A stretch of 33,452 nucleotides of DNA, from contig CADBWU010000015.1 of the NCBI GenBank assembly GCA_902798535.1, positions 1-33,452 of the forward strand, in the 5' to 3' direction. The translations under genes were made by a program, and so were the position numbers. Positions 5,347 to 29,387 of the stretch are shown in pieces. The DNA comes from an uncultured Pseudomonadota bacterium. GTDB taxonomy: Bacteria > Pseudomonadota > Alphaproteobacteria > RUG11792. Under the pieces are notes generated by a model. The model ran no database searches, had not been told where the DNA came from, and worked only from the letters and a program-made list of their open reading frames with translations. The first letter of the stretch is position 1. Each line of letters begins with the position of its first letter.

Positions 5347-5877
5347 CTAGTTAATATATAACGTTCTATTTGAATTTATGATGTGTTTTATATATTTCGA
5401 TTCCAAAACATCTTCTTCAGAACACTCATATATATTTTTTGCAATTTGCAATACAGCAAATTGAAGATCTTTTGGAATTTCTTTTTCATTATCTGTTATT
5501 CCTGCAGTGTAAGTGATTTCAATTGGAAATTTTGTGTCATTCGTGATAATCAGAGTTTTTCCTCGTTCGCTCTTTACAGAATAAGATACATTTTCTTTAT
5601 CTTTATCGTTAATGATTCTTTGTACTGAAATCACCCTAATCACATGACTGACTGGAATTGGAATACATCGTGTGGGGCTCAACTCATTTCCATAAAATGT
5701 ATAGCGGTATGTTTTTTTGAGTATTGGCTTTTCAATGTTTTTTTCTAAAATATCCGTTGCCATAGAAATTATTTCTTTTAAATATGTATCTTCATGATTG
5801 TGATCAATTCTAAGGTGTTCTTTTAGAATTTTGATATCTAAAACTTGTTTATCAGATTGTTGCACTATTAAATTCAT
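5347..5877 (-). CDS. Phage gp6 / GTA g6-like head-tail connector (adaptor) protein
   Basis: 176 residues from ATG 5877 with AAAGGAAACCAAA as ribosome-binding site. It shows the pattern of the HK97 gp6-like connector family: LKEHLRIDHNHEDTYLKEII near the N-terminus, an EKPILKKTYRYTF strand, an IPVSHVIRV segment, then ITYTAGI and IPKDLQFAVLQIAKNIYE near the end. Adaptors of this type form a ring under the portal. No terminase, portal, capsid or tail gene is in the window. Scattered GTA-like genes are known in Rickettsiales and relatives, so a dispersed GTA relic is a better fit than a prophage. A cluster of strong hairpins begins 35 bases upstream. Confidence 0.7.
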   Translation of the reverse strand: MNLIVQQSDKQVLDIKILKEHLRIDHNHEDTYLKEIISMATDILEKNIEKPILKKTYRYTFYGNELSPTRCIPIPVSHVIRVISVQRIINDKDKENVSYSVKSERGKTLIITNDTKFPIEITYTAGITDNEKEIPKDLQFAVLQIAKNIYECSEEDVLESKYIKHIINSNRTLYIN

Positions 5878-5911: not shown

Positions 5912-5948
5912 GAGTCACAAAAGGCTTTTGCAACGCCTTTTGTGACTC
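5912..5948. repeat. Hairpin A' upstream of the GTA-like pair
   Basis: Arms gagtcacaaaaggc (5912-5925) and gccttttgtgactc (5935-5948) pair perfectly over 14 bp with a 9-base loop. It takes the position that hairpin A has in the 5' control modules, between the larger palindrome and the gene, but its sequence is unrelated. Confidence 0.8.
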
Positions 5949-5951
5949 CAG

Positions 5952-5999
5952 GGGGCGCGCGATATGATAAGATTACAAGCCTATCATATCGCGCGCCCC
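5952..5999. repeat. Hairpin B' (GC-rich perfect palindrome), relative of hairpin B
   Basis: Arms ggggcgcgcgatatgata (5952-5969) and tatcatatcgcgcgcccc (5982-5999) pair perfectly over 18 bp around a 12-base loop. Compared with hairpin B at 590-632 and 26060-26102 the arm keeps ggggcgcg and the AT-rich inner half, while two inner bases and one CG step differ; both arms have changed together so pairing is kept. Confidence 0.85.
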
Positions 6000-6038: not shown

Positions 6039-6104
6039 AAATTTGTATTGTTTTATTATTTTTTTCAAAAGGTATCCGAATTGTACTGATTTCGCTTCCG
6101 CCTA

Positions 6105-6171
6105 TCAAGGTACGCTTCGCTATTCGCTCGCTTTTGGACATATCCAAACAGATATTGTCCAAAAACCTTGA
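6105..6171. repeat. Nested hairpin with an outer stem like hairpin A
   Basis: Outer arms tcaaggt (6105-6111) and accttga (6165-6171) enclose an inner stem ttttggaca (6132-6140) with tgtccaaaa (6156-6164). The outer arm sequence is the core of hairpin A at 520-585 and 26004-26055. Confidence 0.6.
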
Positions 6172-6820
6172 CACGCGTTCGCTCAATCAGGCAAATTTTT
6201 TTCGTCCTTTTGGAAAAAAATAAAATATAACGTCTGATGTTTGTTGCCGCAAATTCATATTTTGCAACAAATTTTTCGAATGAATAATTCGAAGGGCTCA
6301 TATGACCTATTCTCAGTCTAGCACAATAACAATACAAAACGTCAAGCATTAAAAAGTCCCATCATCTATTTTTTTTCTGCATGATATAGAAGAGGTAAAT
6401 AAGAAATGCTAACCATATAAATATGCATGCATGCGTGATAAAAAACAATTCGCTGAAAGATAAATAATGGCAAAGTGATTTTTTTTGAAAAAAGAATGCT
6501 GTAGGTGTAATGGCGGTAGGAAAAATTTTTTTCGAGAAAATCAATTAATAAAATATGCAAAAATAGTCTTAAAATTGCCCTGTTTAAATAAAGTCTGAGC
6601 GAATGATTATGAAAAACAAGAGGCGGTAGCGTATCTGATATTTGCTCGAAAAATATGATTCAGTTGGGCTAAAGGCATTGCTAAGTTGCTCAAAAAAACA
6701 AGAAGTATAGCAGAACGCATTTTTGTGCATTTATTTGTCAATTATGCTACTTACAAATGTTTCCCCAAAATGTGAATTACATGCTATTCTGATACTAGGG
6801 GAAGATTTGGAGGATAAGTA
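6172..6820. other. Gene-free, very AT-rich stretch upstream of the SIMPL gene
   Basis: No open frame here has recognisable protein features. Small minus-strand frames at 6362-6560 are hydrophobic but in low-complexity T-rich sequence and are not accepted. Seen: a small inverted repeat ttcgaa-tgaataa-ttcgaa around 6275-6295, an atgcatgcatgc run near 6422, and a frame at about 6600-6775 that is open except for one TGA, possibly a decayed gene. The promoter of the SIMPL gene must lie in the last 150 bases but no convincing -35/-10 pair was found. Confidence 0.5.
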
Positions 6821-11998: not shown

Positions 11999-12649
11999 GC
12001 TCTTGACTAGCATCTCTGAAAGAGATATGGTAAGAGGGTATAAAATACAGGCGTTTGAGCGATTACAAGGTAAAAAAAACTGTGAGGCGCTTTTGCGACG
12101 ATTTAACAGCGAGCACGACGTCTAAAATTTTATCCATAAATAGAAACACAATTAATGTATATTTTAACGAGTTTCGCGTAAAAATTTTGGCAAATTCTAT
12201 AAAAGAACATAGCAAATAATTTGGTATTTTTGAATTAGATGAAAGCTATTTTGGAGCACGTAGAATTCGTGGGAAAAGGGGTAGAGGAGCCGCTAGCAAC
12301 CCCCTGTTTTTGGCTTGCTAAAACGGGAGTAAAAACGTTCGTGCTGAATTGTTCAAAAGGGAAACTAGGGCAAGATACTGGAAGATTCGGCAATTCACAC
12401 CGACGGCTGGAGAGCGTATGATTTATTTTATTTGGGCACATTACCACAGTCAGAATGAATTTGCGTGTGGCAAAAGACATAATGTAAATGCCATCGAATG
12501 TCTTTGTAGTTTTTTCCGGAATACGGTAAGCAAAATTCAACAGATTGACAAGCAAATCTTTTGTCTCGCATTTGAAAGAATGTGAGTTCAGATCCTAACT
12601 ATAGATACGAAGGTTTGCTAGCTGTTTTGAAACAATGCCAGTCTAGAGC
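11999..12649 (+). mobile_element. Decayed ISXO2-like (IS1595 family) element, copy 1
   Basis: Bounded by inverted repeats gctcttgactagcat (11999-12013) and the imperfect complement of atgccagtctagagc (12635-12649). The plus strand encodes a broken transposase: KYRRLSDYKVKKTVRRFCDD, TASTTSKILSINRNTINVY, then after a TAA FELDESYFGARRIRGKRGRG, a frameshift, and SQNEFACGKRHNVNAIECLC. This is the ISXO2/IS1016 pattern (DESYFGGxRxGKRGRG; NEFARGKxHINGIESFW). Upstream ATG is mutated to ATA and there are several stops, so it is dead. It is about 140 bases shorter than copy 2, so it carries internal deletions. Confidence 0.85.
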
Positions 12650-16611: not shown

Positions 16612-17400
16612 GTTCTTGACTAGCATTTCTGAAAGAGATATGGTGATAGAGTATGAAATACAGGCGTTTGAGCGATTACAAGGTAAAAAAAATTATGAAG
16701 TGCTTTTGTGACGATTTAACAGCAAGCACGACAGCTAAAATTTTGCCCATAAATTGAAACATAATTAATGCGTATTAACTAGGTCTTTCAAAGAAAATAG
16801 CAAAGAATTGGGTATTTTTGAACACAGCGTGTTGAAACACAATGTATTTTGAGCTAGATGAAAGCTACTTTGGGGGGGATATGCAGAATTCGTGGGAGAA
16901 CAGAGTTTCTAATCCCCAATTCCTAGTTTTGCTTAAACAAAATAGAGGGGGGAGCTCATTACTGTTGCAAAAAATTGTTCAAACACAGAATGTGGGGGAT
17001 TTAAAATTGATGAGAGCTACTTCAGTGTTTGCAAAAAACGGAGACGAGAAGTTACATTTGTGATTTTCTAAAACGACACAAAAAAGTGTTCGTAACGTTC
17101 ATAAGAGAGCGCTAAGGCAAGATACTGGAAGGTTCGACAATTCGTACTGACGGGTGAATCTCGTAGATTTTGAACAGGTGCGATACCACAGTCAGAACTA
17201 ATTTGCACACGGCAAAAGACCCAATATAAATGCCATCGAATGTCTTTGTAGTTTTGCGAAAAGAAGGCTTGTAAAATTCAATGGATTGACAAGCAAGTCT
17301 TTTGCCTTGCATTTGAGAGATGCGAGTTTAGATTTAACCATAAAGGTGAAGATTTGCTAGCAATTTTGTTGGCAATTCTGAAACTATGCTAGTCAAGAGC
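16612..17400 (+). mobile_element. Decayed ISXO2-like (IS1595 family) element, copy 2
   Basis: Inverted repeats gttcttgactagcat (16612-16626) and the complement of atgctagtcaagagc (17386-17400) delimit 789 bases. The plus strand encodes MKYRRLSDYKVKKIMKCFCD, TASTTAKILPIN, a TGA where copy 1 has AGA (Arg), a frameshift, then FELDESYFGG. Near the right end remnants of the NEFxRGKxxxNxIE segment and the terminal KECEFRFN-like segment remain out of frame. It is the same element type as 11999-12649 and clearly inactive. Confidence 0.85.
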
Positions 17401-22794: not shown

Positions 22795-23252
22795 TCGCCT
22801 TTAGGCGAACACTTCAGTATAATGAGAGGTATGGTATACAGAAGAAGTTCACATAGTATTCTACACAAAGTATAGGTACAGAGTGTTGTACGGTAATGAT
22901 ATGGGAAATCTGCTCAGCAAATTACGTCGATATAATCAGTGGCAATGTAAGCCCAGACCATGTGCACATGCTTATATCAGCTCCTCCACATCTATCTGTA
23001 TAAAGGGAAAGGTATGAGAATATCGCAAGATGAGTTCCTGGAATAGTGGCATCTATGAGCTTGAGGATACTTCGTTGCAACATCCGGGCAAATAAGAATA
23101 AAACAAATAAGCATAAAAGAAGTGCAAAAATATATAGAGGAATAAGAAGAACATCATAAAAAGGATACATTCACAATATCCGAATTCTGAGTGTTTACTC
23201 TTTTAATCTGCTTTCCAAGCATGACATAGAACTACCGGCTTCTAGCCGGTAG
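22795..23252 (+). mobile_element. Decayed IS200/IS605-type element (TnpA remnant)
   Basis: Left subterminal hairpin tcgcc-ttta-ggcga (22795-22808) and right hairpin ctaccggc-ttcta-gccggtag (23232-23252) frame a broken Y1 transposase read on the plus strand. MVYRRSSHSI near 22831 is the usual start; further frames give RYRVLYGND, then DIISGNVSPDHVHMLISAPP with the HUH-type His-x-His, and GYFVATSGQI, YIEE, EEHHKKDTFTISEF at the end where the catalytic Tyr helix lies. At least three frameshifts and several stops make it inactive. There is no tnpB. The minus-strand open frame at 22922-23170 is its antisense shadow. Confidence 0.85.
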
Positions 23253-24505: not shown

Positions 24506-25897
24506 TCAGTCGAATAGTGAATTAAAGGCATTGCCAAAAATAAAGTCGTTGTCTTGCAGTGCTTTTAGAAGTATTTTATCACTATACTCATCTTCGCTAA
24601 GCTTAAATAGATTTCTAAACTCCGCAATTTTGTCTTTTTCCTCTCTTGATAGTTCTAGGTATTCAACAACCTGTGCATTACTTCTCTTCAGACTATCTCC
24701 AAAAGATCGTATTATCGTGGTTAAGCATCCCGCTGCAGAGTTCACTCCCTCCCCATTATTCTTAACTCGATATGCCAATTTACGTGCATCAGCACCACCT
24801 TGTGAGAAATTAACTATCTTGGTTTTGAAGTAATCTAGAGACGCCGCATCTAGTTGTTCTTTTGTTTTGCCACCCGGCATTATGAGATATGATAACGAGT
24901 ATTTTTGAGGAAGCTCATTTTTTATGATCTCTCTCCATTGATTCCCCTGCACTAGCTCAAATATCTTGATATTTTCACTGCTTGCACTCTTATCGAGATT
25001 CCAGAAATCAGTAGTGTATTTTACAACATTTTCAGGTATTGTGTATATAGGCATCATACTCCAATCTATATCATTTTTATACGAAACAACTTCAGTTGGC
25101 CGCACATTGCTGTCGTATTTTATTTTATACTCCCTCCAGAATGCGCTGTTTTCACCGAGGACTATATTATTTTCTGGATATGAAGCTATAACGCTGTTAC
25201 TGCTGTTATTCAGGTCAACTTTACTAATTCGTGCGTGAGGGGCTTTAATTTTACGGCTGTTTATATCAATGTCTTTTATTTTAGATATATATCCTACTAA
25301 ATCTACTCCTTTCGAACTTACGTATTGTGAAATATCGATTACGGCGTTCCCAATTAACTGCATAAAGTTAGGATTTTTTTGCTGCGCAAAACTCTTTTGC
25401 GAATAATAAGTAGTCAAGTCAGAGTATATGCTGTTTAATGTTGTGAAATAATTTCTTGTTACATCAAGGTCGTTATTCAGGGACTGATAAATAAAATTCG
25501 CTAACACTAAGGCATTCCAGTTTGCCTGGGAATATTTCATCATATCCGGCGTCGCATTGCGAAATTCAATTATATCAATCGCACCCCGTGAAACTGTGAT
25601 TTTTGCTTTAGAAAAAAACTCGGTATTATCTGTGACACAATTAGCGACAATTTGAGGAATAGCATCAAATATACTATCTTCATATTGGCTCGCTTTCCAC
25701 CATGTTTTTTGTTTAACATCAGCACATTTCCACGTTTCGCTTAAATGAGCTCGCCAGCTGTGCTGATACATCTCACGAGTCAATTCACTCTTGGGACTCT
25801 GTCCTTCGCTTGCACAACAACAAAAACTAGTCAATGACAGAACTACAGCACTACCTAAGCCTAGCCCCCCCCCGAACAAACACTTCTTTTTAAACAT
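24506..25897 (-). CDS. Exported protein of an unrecognised paralogous family, intact copy
   Basis: About 463 residues from ATG 25897 (AGAGGTG 9 bases upstream). The protein starts MFKKKCLFGGGLGLGSAVVL, a signal peptide followed by an unusual Cys cluster (SFCCCASEG), so it is exported. No known domain. Family core shared with the gene at 1-415 and the pseudogene at 1289-2191: YEDSIFDAI, Cys about 15 residues on, IIEFRNA, then ANWNALVLANFI. The C-terminal 60 residues are helical and charged (SREEKDKIAEFRNLF). A G9 tract covers codons 9-11. The upstream 200 bases, including promoter and two hairpins, are a near copy of those at 420-632. It follows mfd in the same direction but has its own promoter. 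Host-interaction protein is possible but only a guess. Confidence 0.8.
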   Translation of the reverse strand: MFKKKCLFGGGLGLGSAVVLSLTSFCCCASEGQSPKSELTREMYQHSWRAHLSETWKCADVKQKTWWKASQYEDSIFDAIPQIVANCVTDNTEFFSKAKITVSRGAIDIIEFRNATPDMMKYSQANWNALVLANFIYQSLNNDLDVTRNYFTTLNSIYSDLTTYYSQKSFAQQKNPNFMQLIGNAVIDISQYVSSKGVDLVGYISKIKDIDINSRKIKAPHARISKVDLNNSSNSVIASYPENNIVLGENSAFWREYKIKYDSNVRPTEVVSYKNDIDWSMMPIYTIPENVVKYTTDFWNLDKSASSENIKIFELVQGNQWREIIKNELPQKYSLSYLIMPGGKTKEQLDAASLDYFKTKIVNFSQGGADARKLAYRVKNNGEGVNSAAGCLTTIIRSFGDSLKRSNAQVVEYLELSREEKDKIAEFRNLFKLSEDEYSDKILLKALQDNDFIFGNAFNSLFD

Positions 25898-25948
25898 TTC
25901 TATACACCTCTTAAAAAAAACCACGGGTATCAATACCCTCCTATGAAT

Positions 25949-26003: not shown

Positions 26004-26055
26004 CCTGTCAAGGTCAGCGACCAAAGGGAGCTGAGCATATGCGTACCTTGACAGG
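26004..26055. repeat. Hairpin A of module copy 2
   Basis: Arms cctgtcaaggt (26004-26014) and accttgacagg (26045-26055), identical to copy 1, with a 30-base loop instead of 44. Confidence 0.75.
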
Positions 26056-26059
26056 CCTC

Positions 26060-26102
26060 GGGGCGCGATGTGGTAAAATAAAAACATACCACATCGCGCC
26101 CC
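26060..26102. repeat. Hairpin B of module copy 2
   Basis: Same 16-bp arms and 11-base loop as 590-632. It begins 12 bases after the mfd stop codon in the minus direction, so it may serve as the mfd terminator even without a T tract. Confidence 0.8.
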
Positions 26103-26114
26103 CATCCTCTTATG

Positions 26115-29100
26115 CTATATCTGCGTAAAGTACAGTTCCCGTATAAGCCTGTATATGCTGTTGGTACGAGCGACTACGTTTTTCCATTTTTTCAGTATTA
26201 CAATTTTGTGGTCATTTCGAATTTTAAATCTACCGGAATCTTCTGCGACAACACTAGAGTTCAGGAAATTCATAAGCCCTTCTGTGCTTTTGCATCTGTT
26301 TTCATGAAATGAAAAAGTAATACCATTTGTGCCTACATCGAGCTTTTCAATATTATTTGCCAGACACAGTAATTTGATTTTTATCAAAATCAGCAAGTTT
26401 TGTACTTCAAAAGGAATTGCTCCAAATCGATCGGATAGTTCATACTCCATTGCGTCAACTGCCGTTTCTGTATCTAATGCCCCTATGCGCCGGTACATCT
26501 CCAGTCTTAATGCTGAATCACTAATATAATACTCTGGTATCAGAGCTGGTATACCTAGGTTAATTTGGATTTCTATTTTGTTATCCTGTTGCCCCTGCTC
26601 TCCTGATTTCAGCATAAGAATTGCTTCTTGCAACATGGATTGATAAAGTTCAACGCCGACTTCTTTGATATATCCTGATTGCTCTTCTCCCAGCAAATTC
26701 CCTGCTCCCCGAATATCAAGATCATACGAAGCCAAATTAAATCCCGATCCGAGTTTATTCAAATTGCTTAGTACTTCCAGACGTTTTTTGGCCGTATCAT
26801 TTAAGATTTTTGATTTATCCAAAAGTAAATACGCATAGGCCTGGCGTTTTGCTCGACCCACTCGGCCACGCAATTGATAAAGCTGTGAAAGTCCAAACAA
26901 ATCAAACCGGTGAATTAAAATTGTATTGGCATTCGGGATATCGATTCCAGAATCTATAATATTTGTTGAAACCAGCACATCAATTTTACAATCACAAAAA
27001 TCACGCAAAATTTCTTCAAGAGTCGCCGTCTTACCGTGGACTTTTGCTATTCGTAGCTCAGGGAAAAGTTTTGAAACGTGCTCATAAATTTCATCTAGAA
27101 ATTCAATCCTCGGAGTTACAACAAAAACCTGCCCGCCGATTTTTGTTTCCTGCTCTATGGCTTGCCTAATTATCTTATCATCGTAGTCGCATATCAAAGT
27201 TTTTACTGGCAATCTATCTGTTGGCGGCGTTGTAATCATGCTAAGCTCTTTTACTCCAGAGATTGCCAGTTGCAAAGTGCGGGGTATCGGAGTTGCGCTT
27301 AATGTCATGAAATGCGTTGTTGCGTGGTAATGTTTCAAAAACTCTTTTTGTTTTACTCCGAAATGTTGCTCTTCATCAATAATTATAAGTCCCAGATCTG
27401 CAAATTCAATTTTTTCAGACAGAATAGCGTGAGTTGCAATAATAATCTGAATTTTTCCTGATTTAATATCTACCAAACTTTCTAGAAAGCGCGCTTTGGT
27501 TACAAATCGTGAAAGTTGGCAGACTTCAACCCCAAAACCATCAAATCGCTTTTGAAAATTTTTATAATGTTGCATGGCTAGAATGGTCGTCGGTGCCAGT
27601 AACACAACCTGTTTTAATGATGATGCGACTATAAATGAAGCTCTTAGCGCAACTTCTGTTTTTCCAAACCCAACATCTCCACAAATCAATCTATCCATTG
27701 GAGTTTCAGAAGTTAAATCGCCTATAACATCATCAATAGCAGATAGCTGATCTTCGGTCTCTGTATGCTCAAAACCTTGACAAAATTTTTCATAATCATC
27801 AGGAATTTCTAATGATTTTGTTTTTTGCATCTTTCGTTTTGCTGCCAACTCTAAGAGATCATTTGCGATAACCAGCAATTTTTTATATACCTTCTGTTTG
27901 CGATTAATCCAAGCATTGCTCTTCAAATAGTCAAGTTGTACATTAGAATCTGCATCACCGTATCGGGAAATTAAATTTATATTTTCGATAGGAATATACA
28001 GTTTGTCATTGTTTTGATATCGCAGCACTATGAAATCGTGAGAGATTCCCGCAACATTAAGATTAACTAGTCCATCGAAAATGGCTATGCCATGTTTTTC
28101 ATGCACGACAAAGTCTCCAACGGATAATTTTGAATAATCCTTAAAGAAATCCTTTGTAGTCTTTTTTCGACTAAATTTTAACTCTTCGCCAAAAAGGTTT
28201 TTTTCTGTATATATGGTTAACTTGTCTGACCTAAATCCATTATTTAAATCAGATATCATTATATTTAGGCTATCTTTATCTGCTTCTGAAAAGTTTTTTA
28301 TTTCTTTGACATTTTTATTTTTTAATAGATTTTTTGTTATATTATATGAACCATTGGTTTTTAATGAAAAAATGGTAGTGTGTGATAATTTTGCTAATAA
28401 ATTATGGAGTTCAATTCCATTCCTAATATTGTATTTTTCACTTAGAGGTTTAAATTTAGAATTTTCCATGAATGGATTTAATTCGCAGAATTCAAATCTT
28501 TTTATAACTTCGTTTACCGCATCTAAAAATATTTCAGAAACCGGGAAAACATTTGAGTACTGTCGGTATTTTTCCAAGCATTTGTCAAAGAACATTTTAT
28601 TATGTTTCTGTAGCTCAAAATCAAAAATAAACTTTGTGCCTTTTGGAAAATAGTCCAAAACGCTTGTGTTTTTTTCATGAAAACAACTTTGAAACCATTC
28701 AATACCCGGGAAATAATTTCCATTCGCTACCGCTTCCTTTGCTCGTTCATCATTGAACTTATATTTCTGTTTAAACAAATATTGCACTTCCTCATTTAAA
28801 ATTATTTCTGTACATTTGATAATCTCTATTGTTTCCATTTCTTTTATGCTAAGTTGAGATTCTTTATCAAATGCTTTTATTGATTCAATTTGATCTCCAA
28901 TAAATTCTAGTCTTACTGGATTTTGCATATCCGGAATGTAAATATCAACTATGCCTCCTCTGACGGCAAAAGCACCTTTGATGTTAACTACTGCAGTTCT
29001 GTTATATCCGAAAGCTATAAGTTTGTTCACTAAAGTCGATATAGTATATCTACTACCTTTTGTTATTATTAATTTCTCAGAAAAGAAGCTTACATCTGCA

Positions 29101-29387
29101 ACTCTATAATTCAGAGCTACGATATCGGTTATCACGAACTTGGGCTTTCGATTTGCAATATGTTCTAGAGCAACAGCTCTCTGTCTAAATATCTCATAAT
29201 CAAAAACTGTGGCGTCATATATATCTGAGGGAAAAGAAGCGAGATACTCTACCGGCGCTCTTGTTTTAAATAAAGAATAAACGTGGCTTGCTAATTTTCT
29301 ATCAGCAAACACAATAACATAGCGTTCATGAGGGTAATCACAAAATGGCAACCATTCTGGCGATATACCCTCAAACGTAGTTTTCAT
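26115..29387 (-). CDS. mfd: Transcription-repair coupling factor Mfd
   Basis: 1090 residues, a little shorter than E. coli Mfd. It removes RNA polymerase stalled at DNA damage and recruits UvrA. Domains in order: UvrB-like region (1-350), RNA-polymerase-interacting domain with VGDFVVHEKHGIAIFDGLVN (about 422) and LRYQNNDKLYIPIENI, superfamily 2 translocase with Walker A GDVGFGKTEVA (about 570), DEEQHFGVKQKE (about 668), TLSATPIPRTLQLAI, and motif VI QLRGRVGRAKRQAYAYLL, then a TRCF C-terminal domain. All motor motifs are intact. ATG 29387 shares one base with the stop of the upstream protease gene (TAATG), so the two are translated in a coupled way. Confidence 0.97.
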   Translation of the reverse strand: MKTTFEGISPEWLPFCDYPHERYVIVFADRKLASHVYSLFKTRAPVEYLASFPSDIYDATVFDYEIFRQRAVALEHIANRKPKFVITDIVALNYRVADVSFFSEKLIITKGSRYTISTLVNKLIAFGYNRTAVVNIKGAFAVRGGIVDIYIPDMQNPVRLEFIGDQIESIKAFDKESQLSIKEMETIEIIKCTEIILNEEVQYLFKQKYKFNDERAKEAVANGNYFPGIEWFQSCFHEKNTSVLDYFPKGTKFIFDFELQKHNKMFFDKCLEKYRQYSNVFPVSEIFLDAVNEVIKRFEFCELNPFMENSKFKPLSEKYNIRNGIELHNLLAKLSHTTIFSLKTNGSYNITKNLLKNKNVKEIKNFSEADKDSLNIMISDLNNGFRSDKLTIYTEKNLFGEELKFSRKKTTKDFFKDYSKLSVGDFVVHEKHGIAIFDGLVNLNVAGISHDFIVLRYQNNDKLYIPIENINLISRYGDADSNVQLDYLKSNAWINRKQKVYKKLLVIANDLLELAAKRKMQKTKSLEIPDDYEKFCQGFEHTETEDQLSAIDDVIGDLTSETPMDRLICGDVGFGKTEVALRASFIVASSLKQVVLLAPTTILAMQHYKNFQKRFDGFGVEVCQLSRFVTKARFLESLVDIKSGKIQIIIATHAILSEKIEFADLGLIIIDEEQHFGVKQKEFLKHYHATTHFMTLSATPIPRTLQLAISGVKELSMITTPPTDRLPVKTLICDYDDKIIRQAIEQETKIGGQVFVVTPRIEFLDEIYEHVSKLFPELRIAKVHGKTATLEEILRDFCDCKIDVLVSTNIIDSGIDIPNANTILIHRFDLFGLSQLYQLRGRVGRAKRQAYAYLLLDKSKILNDTAKKRLEVLSNLNKLGSGFNLASYDLDIRGAGNLLGEEQSGYIKEVGVELYQSMLQEAILMLKSGEQGQQDNKIEIQINLGIPALIPEYYISDSALRLEMYRRIGALDTETAVDAMEYELSDRFGAIPFEVQNLLILIKIKLLCLANNIEKLDVGTNGITFSFHENRCKSTEGLMNFLNSSVVAEDSGRFKIRNDHKIVILKKWKNVVARTNSIYRLIRELYFTQI

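Follow-up and report, generated by a model that had tools for sequence, protein, structure and literature searches.

Paired hairpins in the window

The analysed stretch of 33,452 nucleotides (the window) is contig 15 of a rumen alphaproteobacterial draft genome of 945,849 bases in 61 contigs (0.95 Mb; G000); all genomes compared with it were draft MAGs. As stated in the initial annotation, hairpin B occurs twice on the plus strand, at 590–632 (16-bp arms, 11-nt loop) and 26060–26102, and a related hairpin B' lies at 5952–5999 on the same strand, each with a second hairpin close by and a minus-strand gene beyond it. The second hairpin lies to the left, at gaps of 4, 4, and 3 nt for 590–632, 26060–26102, and 5952–5999, and beyond it come the starts of the minus-strand ORFs, at 430, 25933, and 5877, respectively. 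Beside the two B copies this partner is hairpin A, at 520–585 (+; CCTGTCAAGGT ... ACCTTGACAGG) and 26004–26055 (+). At the B' locus it is A' (5912–5948, +), which has 17-bp arms and a sequence unlike A, and which is kept in the orthologous locus L074. Right of B' (6101–6175, +) lies an A-like inverted motif that differs from ACCTTGACAGG, and likewise from the complement of ACCTTGACAGG, by a single mismatch.

The ORFs at 2–430 (−), which runs off the contig, and 24506–25933 (−) are secreted-protein-like paralogues with a poly-G tract, and their 5' sides face hairpin A of copies 1 and 2, respectively. ORF 26115–29387 (−), which we take from its protein sequence to be mfd-like, has its 3' end 12 nt away from the second copy of B; orthologous copies of the latter are found in L188 and L185. 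The B' locus is upstream of a phage gp6-like head–tail connector gene (Phage_connect_1; 5347–5877, −), and the B' type is also found at the same locus in G003 (L074) and G004 (L151).

In a survey of arms of at least 14 bp that allowed one mismatch, the arms of B measured 16–18 bp and those of B' 20 bp. This survey detected 12 hairpins in 193 kb of G000, as compared with 1 in a Markov simulation. The motif GGGGCGCG occurs six times in the window against an expectation of 0.18, a count reached in none of 100 shuffles. No Rfam family matched the window at its gathering score.

Several other features were observed in the window and elsewhere. The poly-G family comprises the two ORFs in the window and members in L011, L013, L020, L021, L029, L034, L082, and L086; the proteins start with MFKKKCL, followed by the poly-G tract, which is 6, 9, 11, 10, 9, 8, 7, 11, 17 or 11 bases long. 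Since the frame from the MFKKKCL ATG continues only with 6 or 9 G, these look like contingency genes subject to phase variation. The poly-G genes examined have an A or A+B element on their 5' side. Dispersed phage-like genes beside element copies (window 5347–5877, L030, and L087) encode the gp6-like connector, a portal protein, and a cell-wall hydrolase, and are perhaps remnants of a prophage or a gene transfer agent. Decayed pieces of Y1 (IS200-like) genes lie at 22887–23003 and on other G000 contigs, and a stretch of ~650 bp is duplicated at 12001–12629 and 16614–17368, 76–88% alike in blocks.

A two-hairpin element in one bacterial family

A covariance model built from 24 chosen copies matched 9 of the 35 genomes of the same family among the matches listed, namely all five of genus g1, both of g9, one of g10, and one of g13. 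The double-hairpin family proposed in the initial annotation is thus real and common in related genomes. The relatives include the MAGs RUG14192, RUG11852, RUG11420, and RGIG3458 (goat rumen); RUG presumably denotes the rumen as well. Among the matches listed, G000 has about 20 sites (40 rows over both strands) and the two g9 genomes have 134 and 86 rows over two strands. The pattern GGGGCGCG N16-40 CGCGCCCC occurs at 17 places in G000. When 385 genomes sampled from the class were scanned, the model matched G000 itself and none of the other 384, including four more genomes of the family, all of them non-carriers among the matches listed. Viral contigs, phages, and plasmid collections gave no match to the element, and no report of a double-hairpin element was found among the titles and abstract openings covered by a literature search. 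For the analyses below, 181 model rows were reduced to 91 sites by taking one strand each and leaving out a contig-edge match (L087:1–31).

The unit is ~100 bp long and usually consists of both hairpins, in the order A, a few nucleotides, and B in oriented copies. The A+B length has a median of 101 nt, unaffected by one value of 0 that is a script artefact, and reaches 129 nt. Hairpin A varies in its inner part, and its arms are built around TGTCAAGG / CCTTGACA. Hairpin B has the form GCGCG..TGGTA ... TACCA..CGCGC, in which a GCGC belt surrounds the inner core, and both the TGGTA/TACCA core and GCGC are nearly invariant. By a strict pattern, which misses variants such as that in L081, 59 of the 91 sites have an A no more than 12 nt from B; no A was found beside the g10 and g13 copies fetched, nor beside 11 of the 23 sites of G027. 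In the g9 genomes both hairpins occur in versions particular to these genomes, with changes in both arms. The two ends of the unit, CCTGTCAAGG and GCGCCCC, are not complementary, and the 8 nt right of B carry at most 0.36 bit over 59 sites, indicating that no flank sequence is shared there. A third hairpin, strongly varying yet paired, stands between A and B at L087, L152, and L182; that at L087 is upstream of the cell-wall hydrolase gene.

Conservation of pairing between the arms

The alignment for covariation contained 49 of the 91 sites, from which the g9 sites and most identical G000 copies had been left out. In these 49 copies 97.2% of the cells pair, and two-sided changes are found in 8 of the 19 stem pairs. 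Two-sided cells numbered 24, as compared with 2.6 in shuffles that retain the kinship of the copies, and none of 500 shuffles reached 24; slid controls gave at most 4. The initial annotation had deduced compensating changes from B and B' alone. This comparison is insufficient because the two stand at different loci, but the conclusion was borne out at the orthologous B' locus, where the window has A-T and L074, from another species, has G-C at the third position of the stem counted from the loop, both arms having changed. Two-sided changes within a single locus were seen at two loci, the orthologous B' pair and the dapF pair. Real covariation, as claimed, is therefore supported, whereas selection on the fold or on a protein site does not stand as its sole source: since the copies are alike within species, arm copying or template-switch repair could also yield covariation.

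Gain, persistence, and likeness of copies

Elements occupy matching loci of several species at mfd 3', ruvC 3', gltX 5', parA, an ABC permease gene, dapF, and gp6; here and below, gene names other than dapF, priA, ksgA, and gp6 are those that we presume from the protein sequences. These shared loci give no rate, because the loci of the relatives were mostly fetched for carrying an element. Comparison of gltX and ruvB provided a less biased check of presence and absence. At gltX 5', B is at the same place in G000, G002, and G003, the locus is without it in G001 and G004, and G013 has B at a different distance (26 loci compared, some ending at contig ends). At ruvB 3' (22 loci), G000 and G013 have B, and G012 has a hairpin of the A type. 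These patterns indicate that the genus acquired copies during its own history and has since retained most of them. Most checkable G000 copies have counterparts at matching loci of sister species, so that recent movement looks rare. None of five locus comparisons gave a clean empty site, and no target duplication was found among them.

The likeness of copies was evaluated with 39 of the 53 sites of G000, G002, and G003, leaving out aberrant or A-less ones. The mean identity was 0.878 between different loci of the same genome, 0.860 between species at the same locus, and 0.840 when neither was shared. The likeness within species is thus a modest effect in mean identity; none of 5000 label shuffles reached the within-genome mean observed. 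The nearest relative was solely in the same genome for 22 of the 39 copies and included the ortholog for 5. The dapF copies are an exception, staying close to their own orthologs.

Copies in frame within dapF and priA

Among the loci examined, coding copies were found at two: dapF in four species and priA in another genus. In dapF of G000 (contig 16), a 100-nt A+B unit lies inside the gene in phase 0 and contributes 34 codons without a stop. The unit is common to G000, G002, and G003, and G004 has a longer version. The insert is absent from all 25 DapF of other genera in the alignment, although that of G010 carries an unrelated one at this point; most of these proteins match in two pieces. Solved DapF chains, too, match by parts in most cases. 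The protein is assigned to Pfam DAP_epimerase and retains both cysteine motifs, MCGNG and ACGSGA, whose cysteines we take to be catalytic. Outside the insert, dN/dS was 0.116–0.150 in three pairs, indicating that the enzyme is under selection. The pS values were 0.42–0.51 outside and 0.11–0.19 inside the insert, and for dN/dS inside, where only 34 codons are available, the three pairs gave 0.26, 0.97, and 1.05. The low pS together with these dN/dS values inside is expected if the constraint is on the DNA and not on the peptide. Between G000 and G003, one pair of the insert is G-C versus T-A; the stem is kept while Gly is replaced by Trp.

In priA of G013, hairpin B is in frame. The distance from the P-loop to PEI is 77 residues in this protein versus 26–32 in 11 other PriA; a twelfth, that of G016, has its own short insert without a hairpin. 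Relative to solved PriA chains and the 11 relatives the G013 insert is ~48 residues long, and the hairpin accounts for only ~15 of them. The host proteins with an in-frame element are apparently still working.

Two further candidates were discarded. At ksgA in G004 (L080) the likely ATG comes immediately after the element, which is thus outside the gene, and a 126-codon ORF in L030, which is not a recognised gene and is partly N-masked, was not counted. Separately, long additional segments unlike the hairpin inserts extend two proteins of G010 (L270, contig 31): DapF, where they are Asn-rich, to 399 aa, and the PriA frame to 907 aa.

Comparison with known repeats

Passages of PMC2229807 and PMC10969869 describe Rickettsia palindromic elements (RPE) as palindromic repeats of ~105–146 bp that are both intergenic and in frame in conserved protein genes; the title of a cited reference also reports RPE in Wolbachia. 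The present element resembles RPE in being a short palindromic repeat of many copies (A+B median 101 nt, up to 129; ~20 G000 sites among the matches listed), in its in-frame position in conserved genes (dapF in four species, priA in one), and in its host, Alphaproteobacteria with small genomes. It differs in that it consists of two separate palindromes with a strictly conserved inner core, whereas RPE is one unit with a terminal inverted repeat. Its arms are well kept, whereas RPE arms lose identity over time according to the part of PMC6649704 consulted. The bacterial family is also different; RPE was compared through its published description. We do not claim RPE membership, because a single unit with terminal inverted repeats was looked for and not found.

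CIR, which according to a passage of PMC2229807 has one stem-loop in its 5' part and another in its 3' part, is likewise an alphaproteobacterial repeat with two stem-loops. CIR is intergenic by name, whereas the element described here is also coding. A further difference from CIR is that GANTC, the CcrM site, occurs in none of the 45 A+B units tested. Short hairpins, many extragenic sites, and long persistence are features shared with REP/REPIN. Unlike the REP tags of GTAG/CGTC type named in the title of PMC3733652, no constant tag of that type is present right of B (59 sites scored). In-frame coding copies and the lack of co-occurrence with Y1 genes in these draft genomes also set the element apart from REP/REPIN with RAYT.

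Origin and maintenance of the element

We consider it probable that a non-autonomous, dispersed, RPE-like selfish palindromic element of ~100 bp underlies the hairpins, which would be its copies. In its behaviour it resembles the small selfish repeats of the RPE/MITE class. Within a single family of rumen Alphaproteobacteria with reduced genomes, the element would have been gained at many sites, most of them intergenic; new copies would arise by copying into new sites, with a putative copying enzyme supplied in trans, and the likeness within species may result from turnover or gene conversion. A further proposal, tentative and in our estimate somewhat doubtful, is that hairpin-directed copying (ssDNA gene conversion or template switching) keeps the dispersed double hairpins, which stay at fixed chromosomal loci, alike in each species and their arms matched, acting on the DNA even in a conserved gene. 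Nucleotide pairing would then override the encoded peptide, for which the change from Gly to Trp in dapF with the stem kept is an example.

Alternatively, the palindromes might be functional chromosomal sites recognised by a DNA-binding or nucleoid protein or by an RNA-binding protein, with selection keeping pairing and position. The positions conserved across species, the strong conservation of pairs with two-sided changes, and the nearly invariant TGGTA/TACCA and GCGC core are consistent with such sites. We nevertheless regard this as unlikely, since the element was not found in 26 of the 35 family genomes among the matches listed, is absent at gltX in the sister species G001 and G004, and resides inside dapF and priA. 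The gene context was tallied for 93 sites (the 91 plus L030 and L032), of which 7 inside ORFs were set aside, giving 49 gaps with both neighbours. A constant position relative to gene starts or ends, considered in the initial annotation, was not observed: the neighbour on the B side was a 5' end in 39 cases and a 3' end in 36. The A-to-B orientation showed no bias with respect to GC skew, either (positive in 11/19, 10/18, 9/14, and 12/23). The idea that TTGACA in A and TAAAAT/TATAAT in B form a promoter was dropped; the spacing is 20–21 nt by hand count, and the gene on the B side presents its 3' end as often as its 5' end.

Movement of REP/REPIN-like hairpins by a Y1 (RAYT/IS200-like) HUH transposase would account for hairpins with an extragenic bias and persistence at matching sites, and decayed Y1 genes do exist in G000 (10 matches). 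Among the matches listed, however, G004 and G013 have hairpins and no Y1 match, whereas G008 has 88 Y1 matches and no hairpin, and those of the G000 remnants that were inspected look IS200-like by eye. This lack of co-occurrence of hairpins and Y1 remnants also speaks against the hairpins being ends of a known transposon, a possibility raised in the initial annotation. As no constant tag follows B, we find this mode of movement rather improbable.

It is very improbable that the copies were merely carried along when the poly-G genes underwent segmental duplication (recombination between paralogues). Ten places in G000 do combine a poly-G gene start, shared upstream DNA, and an adjoining A or A+B, but L012, L016, L022, L023, L015, and L032 share nothing beyond the element, the g9, g10, and g13 copies have other flanks, and gains are already seen at loci without this gene family. 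Transcription terminators or attenuators, suggested by strong GC-rich hairpins of which several are 7–35 nt from a stop codon, can practically be dismissed, given that just 5 of 86 have a T-rich tail, defined as 8 nt with at least 5 T, and given the mixed gene sides, 15 of 49 classified gaps being divergent (15 of 67 in a 160-kb background), and ordinary T-tailed hairpins in the same genome (L159:16150, L160:11092).

Selfish palindromes inside working genes are known, in the portions of the literature consulted, from Rickettsia and, by the title of a cited reference, from Wolbachia. If the hairpins are a selfish element as favoured here, a second, structurally different gene-inhabiting family in rumen Alphaproteobacteria would suggest a repeated origin of such a lifestyle. 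With five species of one genus and three more genera, and several copies at matching loci, the comparative set can be used to study the spread of such elements and the reason for the lasting match between their arms.
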